From an uncultured Metabacillus sp. (lineage in GTDB: Bacteria > Bacillota > Bacilli > Bacillales > Bacillaceae): DNA of 45,608 nucleotides. Shown here piece after piece: positions 8,433-15,226 of this stretch. The stretch lies in contig NZ_CANNCR010000035.1 of the NCBI RefSeq assembly GCF_947503125.1, positions 1-45,608 on the forward strand, written 5' to 3'. The notes under the pieces were generated by a model that saw only the letters and a program-made list of their open reading frames with translations, was not told the DNA's origin and made no database searches. The first letter of the stretch is position 1. Each line of letters starts with the position of its first letter. The position numbers and the translations under genes were made by a program.

Positions 8433-9764
8433 TTATTTCATTTTTGCTCTCTGCAACAATCTCTTGATACTATTATTTGCCTCATGTAACACAATACTTT
8501 TATTAATCGTCTTTAAGAGACCATTCTCCATCACAATTTCACCGTTAATAATCGTTGTTTCCACATCTGCACGGGTTGCAGAGTAGACAATTCTTGAAAT
8601 GGGATCAACGCCGTACGAGGGATACGTATGAAAATGATTCAAATTTAATATTGCTAAGTCTGCCTTTTTCCCAACCTCAATGCTGCCAATTTCATTTTCC
8701 ATGCCAACAGCTTTTGCCCCGCCGATCGTTGCCATTTTAAAAACGGTATGTGCATCCATTGCAGTAGGACCGTGGGCAGGTTTTTGAATGAGAGCTGCTA
8801 ATCTCATTTCATTAAACATGTCTAGATTGTTATTACATGGTGCTCCGTCTGCACCTAAACTTAAGGAAACTTGCTCCGATATCATATATGGAGTTTCTGC
8901 TATACCTGATGCTAACTTCAAGTTAGAGCCGGGACAATGACTAACATGAACACCTCGTTCTCGAATGATTTTCTTTTCCTCGTCATCTAACCATATACAA
9001 TGAGCAAGAATAAGGCGGGGATTCGCCAGTCCTAAATGATCTAAATACACAATGTTCCTCATTCCGGTTTCCTTTTGAACAATGTCAATTTCTCCAAGGT
9101 TTTCAGAGGCATGTGTATGAACCATTACATGATAGTGTTCTGAAAGAGATTGAACTTCTCGAAGCAGCTTCTCCGTACAAGACACGACAAATCTAGGAGA
9201 AAACGCATATTTAATCCGGCCATTATCATAGTTGTGCCATTTTTCCAAGAGGTCGACACTTTCTCTAATAGAGTTTTCCGTTTTCTCCTGCAATGGAAGT
9301 GGCACTTCATCGCCTTTGTCCATCATTACTTTCCCGGACAAAGCTCTAATTCCGCTTTCTGCAATTGCTTTAAAAGCATATTCAGTATGATGAACAGTCT
9401 CCATATCAACAATCGTTGTCGTTCCACTCTGGATAAGCTCCCCAATTCCGAGCATGGCAGAATAATAGATTGATTCCTCATCATGTGCAGCCTCTAACGG
9501 CCAAATTCTCTTTTTTAACCAGTCCATTAATTCAAGGTCATCACCTTGGCCGCGGAAGATTGTTTGGCATAGATGAATATGGGTTTGGACAAAGCCCGGG
9601 ATAACTGTCTTTCCTTTTGCATCGATGATTTTATCAGGTTGCGAAACCTCTAGGTTAGGACCAATGTTCATAATGATATCGTCAACGATGTGAAGATCGC
9701 CTATCATGATTTCTTCCTCTTTATTCATCGTCACAATTTCTGCATTTTTAATTAGTAGATTCAT
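8433..9764 (-). CDS. amidohydrolase-family purine/nucleoside deaminase (5'-deoxyadenosine/MTA/SAH deaminase type)
   Basis: A 443-residue zinc amidohydrolase of the COG0402 deaminase group. Metal and catalytic residues are in place: His62 and His64 (THIHLCQ), His219 and Glu222 (HTHASE), His256 (LAHC) and Asp307 (GADG). It most resembles Bacillus proteins named 5'-deoxyadenosine or methylthioadenosine/S-adenosylhomocysteine deaminase. ATG 9764 follows AGGGGG by eight bases and overlaps the end of the small membrane-protein frame by 17 bases. The unit is preceded by a purine riboswitch with a terminator, so its true substrate may be a guanine-like base rather than an adenosine. The reaction class (hydrolytic deamination) is well supported; the substrate is not. 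Confidence 0.88.
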   Translation of the reverse strand: MNLLIKNAEIVTMNKEEEIMIGDLHIVDDIIMNIGPNLEVSQPDKIIDAKGKTVIPGFVQTHIHLCQTIFRGQGDDLELMDWLKKRIWPLEAAHDEESIYYSAMLGIGELIQSGTTTIVDMETVHHTEYAFKAIAESGIRALSGKVMMDKGDEVPLPLQEKTENSIRESVDLLEKWHNYDNGRIKYAFSPRFVVSCTEKLLREVQSLSEHYHVMVHTHASENLGEIDIVQKETGMRNIVYLDHLGLANPRLILAHCIWLDDEEKKIIRERGVHVSHCPGSNLKLASGIAETPYMISEQVSLSLGADGAPCNNNLDMFNEMRLAALIQKPAHGPTAMDAHTVFKMATIGGAKAVGMENEIGSIEVGKKADLAILNLNHFHTYPSYGVDPISRIVYSATRADVETTIINGEIVMENGLLKTINKSIVLHEANNSIKRLLQRAKMK

Positions 9765-9939
9765 AACATATCCCCCTATTTTCATATAAAACGGTATCCA
9801 CGCAATAACCTTGCCGCCAAAATAGACACGACATCCCCTGCTCCTTGCAAAAATTGGCTGCGAACGAGATGGTAAATTCATTGATTAAAAAAACTCCGAT
9901 GACAAATCCGGCAGTTACATATAATATGATGTCTTTCAT
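9748..9939 (-). CDS. small membrane protein in the riboswitch-controlled unit
   Basis: A 63-residue frame starting at ATG 9939, nine bases after AGAGGA. Residues about 4-24 form one transmembrane helix (ILYVTAGFVIGVFLI). The C-terminal half is Cys-rich (Cys at about residues 32, 38, 46 and 58) and not recognised. It overlaps the deaminase start by 17 bases, suggesting coupling. It is the first frame after the riboswitch terminator. A longer version from 9987 lacks a good ribosome site. It could instead be an untranslated leader; homologues would decide. Confidence 0.45.
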   Translation of the reverse strand: MKDIILYVTAGFVIGVFLINEFTISFAANFCKEQGMSCLFWRQGYCVDTVLYENRGICYESTN

Positions 9940-10016
9940 TTCTAAATTCCTCTTAATTGATGCCGCTTCTGCCTTCTTTAGAGTCATCCCATTTCAATCA
10001 CTTTCGTGTATAGGAT

Positions 10017-10063
10017 AAAAAAAGCAACGAGGAAAATATGCTTGTTAAGCAAATTTTCCTCGT
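10017..10063 (-). terminator. riboswitch-associated terminator
   Basis: On the minus strand ACGAGGAAAAT (10063-10053) pairs perfectly with ATTTTCCTCGT (10037-10027). The interior pairs further (GCTT with AAGC). The stem is followed three bases later by seven T. The 5' arm is the same sequence as the 3' strand of riboswitch helix P1, so aptamer and terminator exclude each other. Confidence 0.85.
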
Positions 10064-10128
10064 AGCCAGAAATTTACGGTTTCTAGTAGAGACCCTTAAT
10101 CCGATTATTAAGGTTATACGAGAAAATT
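10052..10128 (-). promoter_or_regulatory. purine (guanine-class variant) riboswitch
   Basis: Read on the minus strand. P1 is AATTTTC-TCGTA with TACGAGGAAAATT (one bulged G). J1/2 has the conserved TATAA. P2 is CCTTAAT/ATTAAGG, seven perfect pairs. L2 is AATCGG. J2/3 is GTCTCTACT (consensus GTTTCTACC). P3 is AGAAA/TTTCT. L3 is CCGTAAAT, an exact consensus match whose CC can kiss the GG of L2. J3/1 is GGCTA. The specificity base (74 in xpt numbering) is C at 10065, the guanine-class choice. Differences from xpt are U48 to C, A73 to G, and a U-G pair closing P3. A promoter lies just upstream and a terminator sharing P1 lies just downstream, predicting an ON switch as in pbuE. Ligand is unproven. 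Confidence 0.88.
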
Positions 10129-10143
10129 AGTTTTATAATCCTA

Positions 10144-10172
10144 ATCATAGTAGCCTTTAAAACTTGATACAA
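10144..10172 (-). promoter_or_regulatory. promoter of the riboswitch-deaminase unit
   Basis: TTGTAT (10172-10167) and TATGAT (10149-10144) are separated by exactly 17 bases on the minus strand. The predicted transcript starts near 10137, about nine bases before the aptamer. Confidence 0.65.
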
Positions 10173-10653: not shown

Positions 10654-11892
10654 TTATTTATACATCAAATACTGCTCACGAATCTTCTTAAAACGTATGA
10701 GGTCATCTTGATATTCAGTCACGATGTCAGAAACAGATGCTCCCTCTTCAATCATCGTCCTTACCCAGTCATTGCCGATTAAGCGGCCAAAGTTGTTTAC
10801 TGCAAGAAATTCAAAGTCATCTGGGTACAAATCATGGATCGTCTTGATGATGTGCAAGCCGGTCGGCACAGCTTTAAATGTGTCACAGTTCGTGACATAG
10901 ATTTCCACCCCATGGCTAAGCTTGCCCGCATGCTTTGAAAAAGCAGGTGTGAAGGAGGCAGCTCGGAATGTGACACCGGGCAGGCCTAATGAATTTAATG
11001 TTTCCGCTAGCTCTGTACTGTTTATATATGGGGCGCCGATTAATTCGAATGGCTTTGTCGTTCCCCTTCCTTCAGAGACATTTGTTCCTTCGATTAAGCC
11101 TGTTGCCGGATAAACAATTGTCGTTGACACGGTAGGCATGTTGGGCGATGGCAAGACAAATGGCAGCCCGGTCTCATCATAATCCATTGAGCGTTTCCAG
11201 CCCTTCATTTTTACCACCTTTAGATCTGCGCCAATGTCAAATTCTTCGTTGAACAGCATTGCCAGCTCGCCCACCGTCATGCCATGGATGAGCGGGATCG
11301 GATATAAGCCCACAAAGGAAGAGAATTCCGGCTCAAGCACAGGCCCATCCACCGTAAGCCCGCCTTGAGGGTTCGGTCGGTCAAGAACGATAAATGGAAT
11401 ATCATTTTCTTTCGCTGCTTCCATCGCATAGGCCATTGTGTAAATATACGTGTAATAACGTGTGCCCACATCTTGAATATCAAAGACAAGAACATCAACG
11501 TTTTCAAGCATTTCAGGTGTCGGCTTTCTCGTTTGCCCATACAGGCTGTAAACCGGCAGGCCCGTCTTTTCATCCACATAAAAGTCAACATATTCCCCAG
11601 CCTGCGCATCCCCGCGCACCCCATGCTCAGGTCCATAAAGAGCGGTTAATTCAATGTCCGGATCCTCATGCAGCAAATCGACAATGCTCGTTAACTTTGA
11701 ATCTACTCCGGTTGGATTTGTAATCAGCCCAACCCGTTTCCCCTTTAATAATTCTTTCTGATCACCTAAAAGCACCTCAACGCCAGGGGTAACCTTTTGT
11801 TTTTTCTTTTCTTTCAAGGCTGATACATTGGCAGAGGGAACCATGCTTAAAACCAACATGCCAATTACCATCAATAAAAGCAGCTTTTTCAT
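10654..11892 (-). CDS. namZ: exo-beta-N-acetylmuramidase NamZ (DUF1343, YbbC)
   Basis: A 412-residue secreted protein with an N-terminal signal peptide (KKLLLLMVIGMLVLSMVP...) and the DUF1343 domain: GKRVGLITNPTGVD, LYGPEHGVRGD, VFDIQDVGTRYYTY and LDRPNPQGG. NamZ removes the non-reducing terminal MurNAc from peptidoglycan fragments outside the cell. ATG 11892 follows TAGGAGGGAG by eight bases; an in-frame start at 11925 runs back into nagZ. It is the third gene of an amiE-nagZ-namZ unit with a 14-base gap after nagZ, and a terminator follows at 10557. Together the three enzymes can trim glycan chains and muropeptides to MurNAc, GlcNAc and peptides for uptake. Confidence 0.93.
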   Translation of the reverse strand: MKKLLLLMVIGMLVLSMVPSANVSALKEKKKQKVTPGVEVLLGDQKELLKGKRVGLITNPTGVDSKLTSIVDLLHEDPDIELTALYGPEHGVRGDAQAGEYVDFYVDEKTGLPVYSLYGQTRKPTPEMLENVDVLVFDIQDVGTRYYTYIYTMAYAMEAAKENDIPFIVLDRPNPQGGLTVDGPVLEPEFSSFVGLYPIPLIHGMTVGELAMLFNEEFDIGADLKVVKMKGWKRSMDYDETGLPFVLPSPNMPTVSTTIVYPATGLIEGTNVSEGRGTTKPFELIGAPYINSTELAETLNSLGLPGVTFRAASFTPAFSKHAGKLSHGVEIYVTNCDTFKAVPTGLHIIKTIHDLYPDDFEFLAVNNFGRLIGNDWVRTMIEEGASVSDIVTEYQDDLIRFKKIREQYLMYK

Positions 11893-11906
11893 CGTAACTC
11901 TCCCTC

Positions 11907-13856
11907 CTAGTTTAATTCCTTGCAAGAATTAAGATGCAAGCCATGCCCAAACTCATATAACGTCTCAGATGGATTTGTGACAGATGGGATATCTACTGGC
12001 AATGTTCCCTTCGGTTTTGCTTCGCCAAAGATGACTTCGATGCCCGCCGGAATATTCGGTTGTCTATAACGGTCATTTGAAAAGCCTTTAAATCCGTAAA
12101 CAGCAAGCACCGCCTTTGCTTCTTCAAAATTCGCCACATCATACGGATTTCTTAAACTTATTAACACAAATTTCTTGTTCTTTTCCTGGGCATCCTTCAT
12201 CACTGCTCTTGGAAAGGCGGTTGCCCATTTGCTTGAATCCTGCACGCTGTCATCGATCACCCCATCATTCACGACAGGGTCGTTTTTCACAACATAGGAA
12301 CCTGTAATGACATAGTCAGCTTCATTAATAAGAGAACGAACTTCATCATCAACTGTTTTTCCGGAAAAGTCCATGCCCGTTACCGCAACATTCTTCCATT
12401 TCTTTTTAGCAGCGATTTCTTCAATGCTCCTTGTCATTGCTTCAACCTGATCGGCAAACGGAGCAAGAACTAAAATGCGCTCACCCTTTTTCGGTTTAAA
12501 AGGCAATGTTTTTTCTTCATTTTTAATAAGGGTCACTGCATCCTCTGCCATTTTCTCTTCCTGCTTTAGATGCTTTTTATTTCCTATCACTTGAATCGCG
12601 TTGGCAATCTTCTCATCAAGCGGAGCATCTTCTCGGTCTTCACCAGGCTTATAGATGCCTCGTTTGATTTTCAACTCGAGTATTCTTTCCACCGATTGAT
12701 CGACCTGCTCCAGCGGTATTTCTCCTGTTTCAATTGCTCCCTTCACTGCTTCAAAAACTGATGCTAAATTCTCTTCCATTTCCAGCGAGGTCACTTGTGC
12801 TGGCATCAGCGCGATATCCACACCTGATTTTAAGGCTAAAACAACCGCTTCTTCCTGCCCAAAATGATCAGCAATCGCTTTCATATTTAACGCATCGGTT
12901 ACGACGACACCATTAAAGCCCATTTCTTCCCGTAGCAGGCCTGTTATGACCTTTTTAGATAATGTTGCCGGAACCATGATTTCCTGTCCGTCCTTTTTGC
13001 TGATATAGGTTGTATCATCGAATGCAGGGAATTGAACATGGGCTGTCATCATCATATCAACACCCGCATCGATGGCCTGTTGAAACGGAACGAGCTCAAC
13101 CGAACGCAACCTCTCCTTCTCATATGGTACAAGCGGAAGTCCATAATGACTATCTACCGCGGTATCGCCATGGCCCGGAAAATGCTTGGTTGTTGCTGCG
13201 ACATTCTGGCTTTGCAACCCTTTTATCGTTTGAATGCCAAGCTTTGCAACAAGCTCCGGATTTGAGCTAAAGGAGCGAACACCAATAACAGGATTTTCTG
13301 AGTTATTGTTAACATCAACAACAGGACCAAAATTAACATTGATCCCTAATGCCGCTAATTCCTTTCCGATGATTTTCCCAGTCTGATAGGCGTATTTTTC
13401 ATTTCGCGTGGCTCCTACGGCCATATTTCCAGGAAGATTTGTCCCTGATTGCAGGCGGGTTACAATACCGCCCTCCTGATCGATCGTGATCAACAAGGGA
13501 ATGTCCTTGCTAGCCTCCTGCAACCCGTCAACAAGCTTTACCGTTTGCTCGGTATCTACCACGTTTTCAGCAAATAAAATCACACCGCCTAAATGGTATT
13601 TTTCAATGATGCTTCCAACCTCATCATTCATTTCCGTAAAGCCGGTTGCTTTGGTTTCCCCAGCTTTTTGCCAATTTCGGAAATCCGGCATGAGCATTTG
13701 CCCAACCTTCTCCTCTAGCGACATCTCCTCCACAATTGACTTTACATCAGTTGCCGCTGTTTCTTTAGTGGTTGCTTTTGCTGACGTAAAGCCTGTAAAT
13801 GCTGTCAACGCTAAGGCTGCCGCTAGCCCGGCCGATAACCATTTCTTTTTCTTCAA
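11907..13856 (-). CDS. nagZ: secreted beta-N-acetylglucosaminidase NagZ (GH3, YbbD)
   Basis: A 649-residue glycoside hydrolase family 3 enzyme that removes GlcNAc from muropeptides in the cell wall. The catalytic loop KHFPGHGDT (about residues 224-232) supplies the His/Asp acid-base dyad. The nucleophile is the Asp of [11 protein letters not shown] (about 321). Bacillus NagZ carries an extra C-terminal domain, and the length here agrees. An N-terminal signal peptide is present ([20 protein letters not shown]). The ribosome site GAGAGGTGG fits TTG at 13856 with eight-base spacing; the ATG at 13868 is too close. It follows amiE by 20 bases. Confidence 0.93.
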
Positions 13857-13876
13857 TGTGACATCCACCTCTCACT

Positions 13877-15226
13877 TTACTTATTTTTCTCTAACGCTTC
13901 ATAAATTGCCGTTACAACACTTCCATAGCTTCCTGTTTGAAAAAGGTCACCGATAAACTGATTTGGATTACTTTCAGGATTGACAAGCGGTGAATGCTTT
14001 TTGTTTGTCAGCAGGACGATCCCTAAATCGAATTCAGGATCAATGATCGTCACCGTACCTGTCCAGCCTGTATGACCGTAAGCGCTTTTACTTGCATGCG
14101 GGCCAAACATCCATTCCATGCTGTCATGGCGGTTAAGTCTCCAGCCAAGACCATAAGTAGGATTCACCATAGATGGCTCAGTAAATGTTTTAACGATGTC
14201 CTGATCGAAAAAGGTATGATCGCCATATCCTCCGCCATTTAGCATCACTTGCAGAAGTACGGCTATATCACTAGTTGTAGAAAAAAGGCCTGCGTGTCCC
14301 GATACACCTTCCATGGAGTAGTAAGCCTTTTCATCGTGAACTTCCCCTTGAAGGGTGTATGTGCGAATATTCGGGAACTCAATGACCCCGTCCCTCGTAT
14401 TTCCAAGCAGCTCCGTTGCCGCAAAATCCTTTGGTTTATACCCTTTTTGCAGCGGATTAAACATCGTATGCTTCAATTTAAGCGGCTTATAGATTTCATT
14501 TTCAACATAAACATCCAACGGCAGTCCTGTGATTTTCTCGACAATGGCACCTAACAGCATATAATCGACATCACTGTAAATATTTTTTGTGCCAGGTTCG
14601 TAGATAAGCGGAGTATCGGACAAGAACTTAATTGTTTTTTCCCGTTCTTGTGAATACAAGTCCTTGGCAACCTTCGGATTATGGTATTGCGGATCAGGAG
14701 TAAATCCTGCTGTATGATGGAGCACATCAATAATGCGCAGTGTATCCTTGCCTTTAATCACATCGGTTTCTTTGTCCTTGAACTCAGGAATATATTGCTG
14801 AACAGGTGCATATAGATCAAGCTTCCCTTCAGCAACTAATTTCTGCAAGGCGAAATTTGTCGCGTACATTTTCGTGTTTGATGCAAGGTCAAACATCGTA
14901 ACGTCCTTCATTTTAAGAGGCCTTTTCAACGGTGTATGCCCTGCGAATTTTTGTTTATAGCCGTAGCTTTCCTTTTTTACAATTTTCCCATCCTTAATGA
15001 CGATCAAGGATGCACCAGGAAATCCAGCCGCCACTTCTTTTTCAATTAACTGATCGACTTTTTCCAATTTTTCAGAGGAAAACCCAACATCCTCCGGCTT
15101 TGCAGCTTTTTCTAGAACCTGATGGAGATCAGCTTCATCCTGATTTGACTTCGCTAGCGCTGCTGAAGGCATGATCAATAAGAGCCCGACAGCTGAACAA
15201 AGTACGCAGCGAATCCATTTCTTCAT
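13877..15226 (-). CDS. amiE: secreted serine hydrolase, N-acetylmuramyl-L-alanine amidase AmiE-like (YbbE)
   Basis: A 449-residue exported protein of the beta-lactamase/DD-peptidase fold. It has a signal peptide ending near residue 25 (ALA-KS), the SxxK motif Ser116-Asn-Thr-Lys119, the Tyr217-Ser-Asp motif and a C-terminal HTG triad (GHTGWTG). In Bacillus subtilis the homologue next to nagZ cleaves the peptide from MurNAc. ATG 15226 follows GGGAGGGAG. It is the first gene of the amiE-nagZ-namZ unit. The murQ, murR and murP genes that precede this block in B. subtilis are not here, so the catabolic half must lie elsewhere or be missing. A long AT palindrome sits upstream. Confidence 0.88.
   Translation of the reverse strand: MKKWIRCVLCSAVGLLLIMPSAALAKSNQDEADLHQVLEKAAKPEDVGFSSEKLEKVDQLIEKEVAAGFPGASLIVIKDGKIVKKESYGYKQKFAGHTPLKRPLKMKDVTMFDLASNTKMYATNFALQKLVAEGKLDLYAPVQQYIPEFKDKETDVIKGKDTLRIIDVLHHTAGFTPDPQYHNPKVAKDLYSQEREKTIKFLSDTPLIYEPGTKNIYSDVDYMLLGAIVEKITGLPLDVYVENEIYKPLKLKHTMFNPLQKGYKPKDFAATELLGNTRDGVIEFPNIRTYTLQGEVHDEKAYYSMEGVSGHAGLFSTTSDIAVLLQVMLNGGGYGDHTFFDQDIVKTFTEPSMVNPTYGLGWRLNRHDSMEWMFGPHASKSAYGHTGWTGTVTIIDPEFDLGIVLLTNKKHSPLVNPESNPNQFIGDLFQTGSYGSVVTAIYEALEKNK

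Follow-up and report, generated by a model that had tools for sequence, protein, structure and literature searches.

Organization of the locus

The window analysed here, 45,608 nucleotides long, is contig 35 of the 5.44 Mb genome of an uncultured Metabacillus sp. (G000). RF00167 is the sole RNA family found in it at the gathering cut-offs of Rfam (74.9 bits against a cut-off of 37, E 1.3e-11), which bears out the purine aptamer proposed in an initial annotation of this DNA; four further purine aptamers lie elsewhere in the genome. On the minus strand, in the order of transcription, a promoter-like sequence is followed by the aptamer, an intrinsic terminator, a spacer and a deaminase gene. The stretch marked in the initial annotation, 10017..10172, spans the -35 box through the end of the T-tract. 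The features are as follows:

10144..10172, minus strand: candidate sigma-A promoter TTGTAT-17-TATGAT (sequence reading)
10043..10141, minus strand: purine aptamer, RF00167 match (74.9 bits, cut-off 37)
10117..10126, minus strand: P1 5' strand, 10 pairs with 10064-10055, one of them U-G, formed in the fold of the aptamer alone
10116-10114, minus strand: J1/2, UAA (sequence reading)
10094..10113, minus strand: P2, CCUUAAU/AUUAAGG, with the 6-nt L2 AAUCGG (RF00167 match and fold)
10086..10093, minus strand: J2/3, GUCUCUAC, with U47 at 10092, C48 at 10091 and U51 at 10088
10067..10085, minus strand: P3 with L3 CCGUAAA and the U-G closing pair 10085/10067 (RF00167 match, fold and covariation)
10065..10066, minus strand: J3/1, with G73 at 10066 and the specificity base C74 at 10065
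10017..10066, minus strand: intrinsic terminator, whose 5' arm starts at G73 and includes the P1 3' strand
10023-10017, minus strand: T-tract of the terminator (terminator folds)
9765..10016, minus strand: spacer without a conserved reading frame, including most of the ORF at 9748-9939
8433..9764, minus strand: amidohydrolase-superfamily deaminase P0001, 443 aa, predicted guanine deaminase (NF005557, 733 bits; Q67, R191, F192)

P2, the L3 sequence, C48, G73, C74 and the U-G pair closing P3 all read as the initial annotation described them. The promoter that it also reported is best kept as a candidate. The two boxes match the consensus at 8 of 12 positions and were not listed by a consensus scan; on the other hand, TTGnnn-17-TATGAT recurs at a comparable distance in six of the seven other Metabacillus-type leaders inspected, with TTGTAT as the -35 box in L087, L090, L008 and L091, TTGAGA in L006 and TTGAAC in L007, and is absent only from L092. 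Over 69 leaders the mean best promoter score is 9.14, against 7.37 for shuffled sequences.

Between the terminator and the deaminase lies the small ORF P0002 (9748-9939), which the initial annotation had taken for a small membrane protein turned on together with the enzyme. We reject this proposal: P0002 has no conserved reading frame among the loci searched. It has no family match at the cut-off, and a tblastn search over the deaminase loci returned P0002 itself, a piece of 10 residues in L087 and two chance-level matches. L087 is the closest relative, and the remainder of the frame is lost there. In five of the eight Metabacillus-type leaders (L006, L090, L088 from M. niabensis, L089 from M. 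halosaccharovorans, and L091) the deaminase starts only 58-83 nt past the aptamer match. The P0002 region is most likely a decaying spacer. Upstream of the switch, three further minus-strand ORFs (window 10654-15226) resemble, by eye, a muropeptide-recycling cluster with NamZ/YbbC-like, NagZ-like and beta-lactamase-family members.

Distribution of the aptamer among relatives of the deaminase

A covariance model was built from 34 Metabacillus purine aptamers, one of them the window's own, and used to search 98 loci, each around a relative of the deaminase; the named loci among these are the best 80 of 366 relatives. An aptamer was found upstream of the deaminase and on its strand in 71 of the 98 loci. 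These make 69 distinct loci including the window, since L088 and L089 come from the same genomes as L007 and L008 and were dropped from all counts given as 69. The aptamer-bearing loci belong to the families Bacillaceae and Paenibacillaceae, and the genera include Paenibacillus, Domibacillus, Niallia, Metabacillus, Halalkalibacter, Halalkalibacterium, Alkalihalobacillus, Alkalicoccobacillus, Amphibacillus and Evansella. Within the genus Metabacillus, the aptamer directly precedes the deaminase in 7 of 21 genomes.

The covariance model found no aptamer in the other 27 loci, one of which (L102) is without upstream DNA. They include a Cytobacillus-like clade of 11 that share another gene cluster around the enzyme. 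Control of the deaminase by other means is thus common. On a tree of 85 deaminases, comprising the 69 loci and the 16 named loci without an aptamer (11 aptamer-less loci of the genus being left out), presence or absence of the aptamer changes five times. We also considered a conserved operon partner and rejected it, because even the most frequent neighbour is shared by at most 22 of 78 clustered loci, that is, the 80 named loci minus L058 and L061, where the script missed the deaminase ORF. The five Domibacillus loci that form cluster 17 (for example L055) have a same-strand ORF upstream of the leader, whose product looks, by eye, like the N-terminal domain of regulators of purine catabolism of the PucR type.

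Structure and conservation of the aptamer

Folded alone, the aptamer forms a three-way junction at -18.4 kcal/mol (z -2.5), a value equalled by 6 of 200 shuffles. The helices covary among the relatives: 15 of 22 pairs have changes on both sides, including six of the seven in P2, and 95.2% of cells are paired, a level reached by none of 500 shuffles of an alignment that was itself fitted to the model. All the guanine-type contact bases of RF00167 (U22, U47, U51 and C74) are present in the window. U22 is kept in 69/69 class members, C74 in 71/71, and U47 and U51 in 68/69, the remaining row being unreadable at U51. Positions 48 and 53 excepted, the letters of J2/3 are identical in 68 of 69 rows. 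In L085 (3859-3926, Alkalihalobacillus deserti) P2, P3 and the terminator remain but part of J2/3 is gone, and this switch is perhaps no longer able to bind a ligand.

As controls we used 33 further purine aptamers of the genus, with the window's own (L004) excluded, and the class differs from them. L2, a feature missed by the initial annotation, is 6 nt long in 56 of the 69 class members and 7 nt in 13, whereas it has 7 nt in 32 of the 33 controls and 9 nt in the remaining one. In a xpt/pbuE chimera an overly stable L2-L3 contact is reported to hamper strand exchange (PMC7707468), and our guess is that a short L2, if it weakens this contact, would fit an easier strand exchange. An extra base stands 5' of P3 in 39/69 rows; the usual six bases are found in the window and 25 others, five in 3/69, and 1/69 is unreadable. 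The L2 length, this extra base and G73 are real differences from the other purine aptamers and may affect binding.

A terminator that competes with the aptamer

When the full leader is folded, the terminator forms instead of the aptamer (-34.3 kcal/mol, z -6.5), and none of 200 shuffles does as well. The 5' arm of the terminator includes the P1 3' strand, as the initial annotation had proposed, so that the two structures are mutually exclusive. It follows that a ligand that stabilises P1 should block the terminator. We scored a leader by script as having the ON layout if its terminator has five or more bases of the P1 3' strand in its 5' arm. This layout was found in 67 of the 71 deaminase leaders and in none of the 33 controls, in one of which (L126) the script found no terminator; the ON configuration before a deaminase, a central proposal of the initial annotation, thus holds well beyond the window. 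In the four leaders that the script misses (L040, L051, L061 and L083) J3/1 still pairs with downstream sequence, imperfectly in L040. C74 is paired within the terminator in 70/71 rows. The predicted layout would contradict the OFF control that is usual for guanine-I riboswitches, although the aptamer itself is not defined by the direction of control.

These features suggest how the switch may work. With guanine absent, the terminator hairpin in the growing RNA would pull out the P1 3' strand, then C74 and G73, and once it has formed transcription would stop at the T-tract. Bound guanine, paired with C74, would hold the junction and block strand exchange, and RNA polymerase would continue into the deaminase gene. 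The deaminase so made would remove guanine as xanthine. The pbuE adenine riboswitch of B. subtilis is described in a similar way, in that strand exchange forms the terminator unless the ligand blocks it, and this exchange passes through P1, J3/1 and P3 (PMC7707468). The window class differs from pbuE in having C74 rather than U74, and its pairing is traced from position 73 only, whereas that of pbuE extends into P3.

The core departures and base 73

Three departures from the purine aptamer core, C48, G73 and the U-G pair closing P3, had been singled out in the initial annotation. All are present in the window, and among the aligned leaders they are kept to different degrees, but they are less exceptional than was claimed. 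C48 occurs in 59/69 rows of the deaminase class and also in 7 of the 33 controls, for which reason we reject it as a specificity base. The P3 closing pair, over 66 distinct rows, is UG in 39, CG in 9, UA in 6, another pair in 4 and a gap in 8.

Position 73 is more distinctive: it is G in 65/71 and A in 6/71 class rows, and A in 33/33 controls. J3/1 has two bases, GC or AC, in all 71 rows. In the 71 terminator folds base 73 forms a G-C pair in 60 cases, G-U in 4 and A-U in 6, and is unpaired in 1; the partner is U where the base is A, and C or U where it is G. Fisher's test of base 73 against its terminator partner, with L070 left out and relatedness ignored, gives p 1.6e-6, or p 8.6e-5, relatedness again ignored, when duplicate genomes of the A73 rows are removed. 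On the tree there are only two independent changes at this base, too few for a sign test, with A73 arising in two separate lineages. A terminator that includes base 73 also removes C74, the expected partner of guanine, from the pocket. We therefore reject G73 as a specificity base, because it pairs inside the terminator, although this rests on only two independent changes; from the pairing pattern it looks as if G73 belongs to the terminator rather than to ligand choice. G73 is also found in three Paenibacillus permease leaders (L186, L196 and L198) with terminators that start beyond most of P1, and its presence in leaders without the ON layout counts somewhat against a purely terminator-driven G73. 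For the reading of such variants the rule would be that base 73 may be set by the terminator and not by the ligand.

The same data bear on the idea that the pocket has been reshaped for some other derivative of a purine, such as a methylated guanine, which the enzyme would then remove. The consistent class differences, namely G73, a shortened L2 and the additional base 5' of P3 that many members have, are in keeping with this idea, as are related amidohydrolases described as native N2,N2-dimethylguanine hydrolases (PMC13054789). The guanine-contact bases are kept, however, and it is unexpected for a specificity residue that position 73 tracks its terminator partner and that A73 appears in two lineages. 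We consider this explanation unlikely. A wider form of it, in which a widespread variant of the guanine pocket senses a derivative other than 8-oxoguanine, such as an N-methylated guanine from RNA, and a misnamed hydrolase destroys that ligand, is in our view improbable to the same degree.

The deaminase

Among named relatives, P0001 is nearest to proteins of M. niabensis (90%) and M. halosaccharovorans (89%) and to one from a record labelled Lysinibacillus fusiformis (89%). P0001 matches the NCBIfam model NF005557, named 5'-deoxyadenosine deaminase, at 733 bits (cut-off 522), and stays below the cut-offs of the guanine deaminase model TIGR02967 (253.9 against 375.4) and the 8-oxoguanine deaminase model NF006055 (298 against 532). 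By whole-sequence similarity it is closer to MTA/SAH deaminases, with 229 bits for 4f0r, whereas E. coli GuaD (6ohb) gives 165 bits. It differs from E. coli GuaD in its NCBIfam family and is 33% identical to it over 348 aa; the two share the motifs THIHxxQ, with the Gln after strand 1, GKVMMD, PRF, HTHxxEN (the HxxEN motif) and AHC.

The active site points to guanine. The glutamine after strand 1 is described as a mark of the GuaD cluster and its chemistry (PMC12828455; PMC13054789), and this catalytic glutamine is present, with the Glu, His and Asp that accompany it, in 80/80 named orthologues. Gln67, Arg191 and Phe192 are equal to those of E. coli GuaD in all 80, of which 16 are without an aptamer, and the active-site His, Glu and Asp (metal and proton shuttle) are likewise identical in all of them. 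In the alignment the solved MTA/SAH deaminase 4f0r has Met at position 67 and His-Ala at 191/192. The relatives L108, L110, L162 and L156 have Met plus His-Ser, His-Ala or His-Gly, and score below the cut-off of every NCBIfam model, the nearest being MTA/SAH deaminase or PRK06038; a further relative, L113, has Gln and Arg-Ser. The window's genome holds no other candidate for a guanine deaminase among its PF00383 proteins and its matches to P0001. PF00383 is the domain of the B. subtilis-type guanine deaminase, and the four proteins of the genome that carry it are TadA, ComEB, RibD and cytidine deaminase. No other match to P0001 there is better than 5.9e-5. P0001 is thus a probable guanine deaminase, as judged from its residues.

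The enzyme could instead be a 5'-deoxyadenosine or MTA-type deaminase, with guanine acting as a proxy for purine excess. The equivalog name of NF005557, matched at 733 bits, and the overall similarity to MTA/SAH deaminases argue for such an activity; against it, the GuaD glutamine and the Arg-Phe pair are invariant in the 80 orthologues and are absent from 4f0r and from L108, L110, L156 and L162. There is also a precedent for a misleading overall similarity, which need not imply a likeness to P0001: the rice enzyme OsGDA1, suggested by similarity to be a SAH deaminase, is reported to be active on guanine, less so on 2'-deoxyadenosine, and inactive on 5'-deoxyadenosine, MTA and SAH (PMC8360030). 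We regard a 5'-deoxyadenosine or MTA-type activity as very unlikely.

Comparison with other purine riboswitch classes

In architecture and in the contacts U22, U47, U51 and C74, the window class resembles guanine-I (RF00167, the xpt type of B. subtilis). It differs in its predicted ON rather than OFF control, in G73 (65/71), in an L2 one base shorter (56/69) and in its gene, which encodes a deaminase and not a function of biosynthesis, salvage or uptake. An adenine riboswitch, defined by U74, is rejected because C74 is found in 71/71 rows; 2'-dG-III, with C73 and a nucleoside hydrolase gene, is likewise rejected since position 73 is G or A in 71/71 and the gene encodes an amidohydrolase.

A switch that turns on a deaminase brings to mind the 8-oxoguanine riboswitch. 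A 2023 paper reportedly describes that class as restricted to Paenibacillaceae, with ON control and an 8-oxoguanine deaminase downstream. We surveyed 104 genomes of the family around P. pectinilyticus (G021). An 8-oxoguanine deaminase (NF006055 above cut-off) was found in 17 of them, and a purine aptamer in 14 of these 17 loci; in 14/14 the aptamer has GGGGCTCTAC, without U47. We take these aptamers before NF006055 enzymes to be the published 8-oxoguanine class. The window RNA might belong to this class, since both share a common plan, an ON layout (reportedly so in the case of the 8-oxoguanine riboswitch) with an amidohydrolase deaminase downstream. They differ in other points: the presumed 8-oxoguanine class lacks U47 in 14/14 and precedes NF006055 enzymes, whereas the window class keeps U47 in 68/69 and P0001 scores 298 against the NF006055 cut-off of 532. 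Residues 191/192 are Arg-Phe in P0001 but Cys and Ser in the G021 8-oxoguanine deaminase, which does have the Gln. G021 moreover carries both units, one of the window class and one with a U47-less aptamer and an 8-oxoguanine deaminase. Membership of the 8-oxoguanine class is highly improbable, and we reject it on U47, the model score and the different enzyme. The suggestion in the initial annotation that the ligand is a damaged or waste base does not fit the ordinary guanine-pocket contacts, nor Arg191 and Phe192, which are not the residues of an 8-oxoguanine deaminase. We do support, by inference, its further suggestion that the ligand and the deaminase substrate may be one and the same compound. 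The 8-oxoguanine class is mentioned in the concluding remarks of PMC9295807, and the 2023 paper is cited in PMC11625349.

Guanine-II and xanthine-II are, according to PMC9295807, also rare Bacillota relatives of guanine-I with predicted ON control, and differ from the window class in J2-3 and J3-1 insertions and, for xanthine-II, in U51G. Both are rejected here, as no J3/1 insertion (71/71) and no U51G (U51 in 68/69, one unreadable) is found. Xanthine-I (the NMT1 motif) is of unrelated architecture and senses xanthine and uric acid (PMC7373994); the same source describes guanine-deaminase-like amidohydrolases under the control of another riboswitch class.

Four Paenibacillus genomes gave 27 purine-aptamer matches, 26 of them above cut-off. 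L193 has an adenine-type aptamer (U74) before an adenine deaminase (TIGR01178, 539 bits, cut-off 472.5), and L199 is of the 8-oxoguanine type; full terminators are seen by eye in both. L203 and L207 are xanthine-II types, before a dioxygenase-like gene and allB, and L209 is a guanine-II type before a phosphoribosyltransferase-like gene (gene names by eye/Pfam). By eye all three have a long J3/1, in contrast to the two bases of the window class. Strain DMB5, whose genome (G024) is among those used here, supplied the xanthine-II RNA that was tested in PMC9295807.

Other Paenibacillus leaders suggest still more arrangements. L200 (1501-3098), L197 and L202 have C74 aptamers with G73 and, by eye, an ON-like terminator before a FAD-dependent protein, which could be a further purine-breakdown enzyme; in L200 it has a match to PF21688 but none to an NCBIfam model at E 1e-20. 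L208 and L210 have a much enlarged P2/L2, with A73 and C74, and a terminator that by eye looks ON-like; the gene that follows encodes a putative transporter, possibly for purine export. The L208 protein is an EamA match (PF00892), and the L210 aptamer, at 35 bits, is under the Rfam cut-off. Purine aptamers also precede a permease in L186, L196, L198 and L204, three of the four with G73, the L186 protein matching Xan_ur_permease (PF00860). Their terminators start 11-18 bases past position 73, beyond most of P1, and these leaders look OFF.

Discussion

We consider it probable that the window RNA acts as a transcriptional ON riboswitch, sensing guanine and controlling the gene of a guanine deaminase. 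The aptamer, the terminator that excludes it, their conservation, the contact bases and the residues of the enzyme are read from sequence and folding; from these we infer that guanine is the ligand, that its binding antiterminates and that the enzyme deaminates guanine. The class is most likely a reversed form of a well-known switch, sensing guanine and not damaged bases. A literature search, with most subscription journals outside its scope, found no guanine riboswitch on a guanine deaminase, which weakly suggests that the combination is new.

Should this reading be correct, a pocket for guanine that has long been classed among OFF switches serves at 69 distinct loci to induce guanine breakdown. 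The name 5'-deoxyadenosine deaminase would have to be corrected for at least this branch of NF005557. In Paenibacillus, a matching set would be completed, with adenine, 8-oxoguanine and guanine switches each controlling a deaminase of its own.
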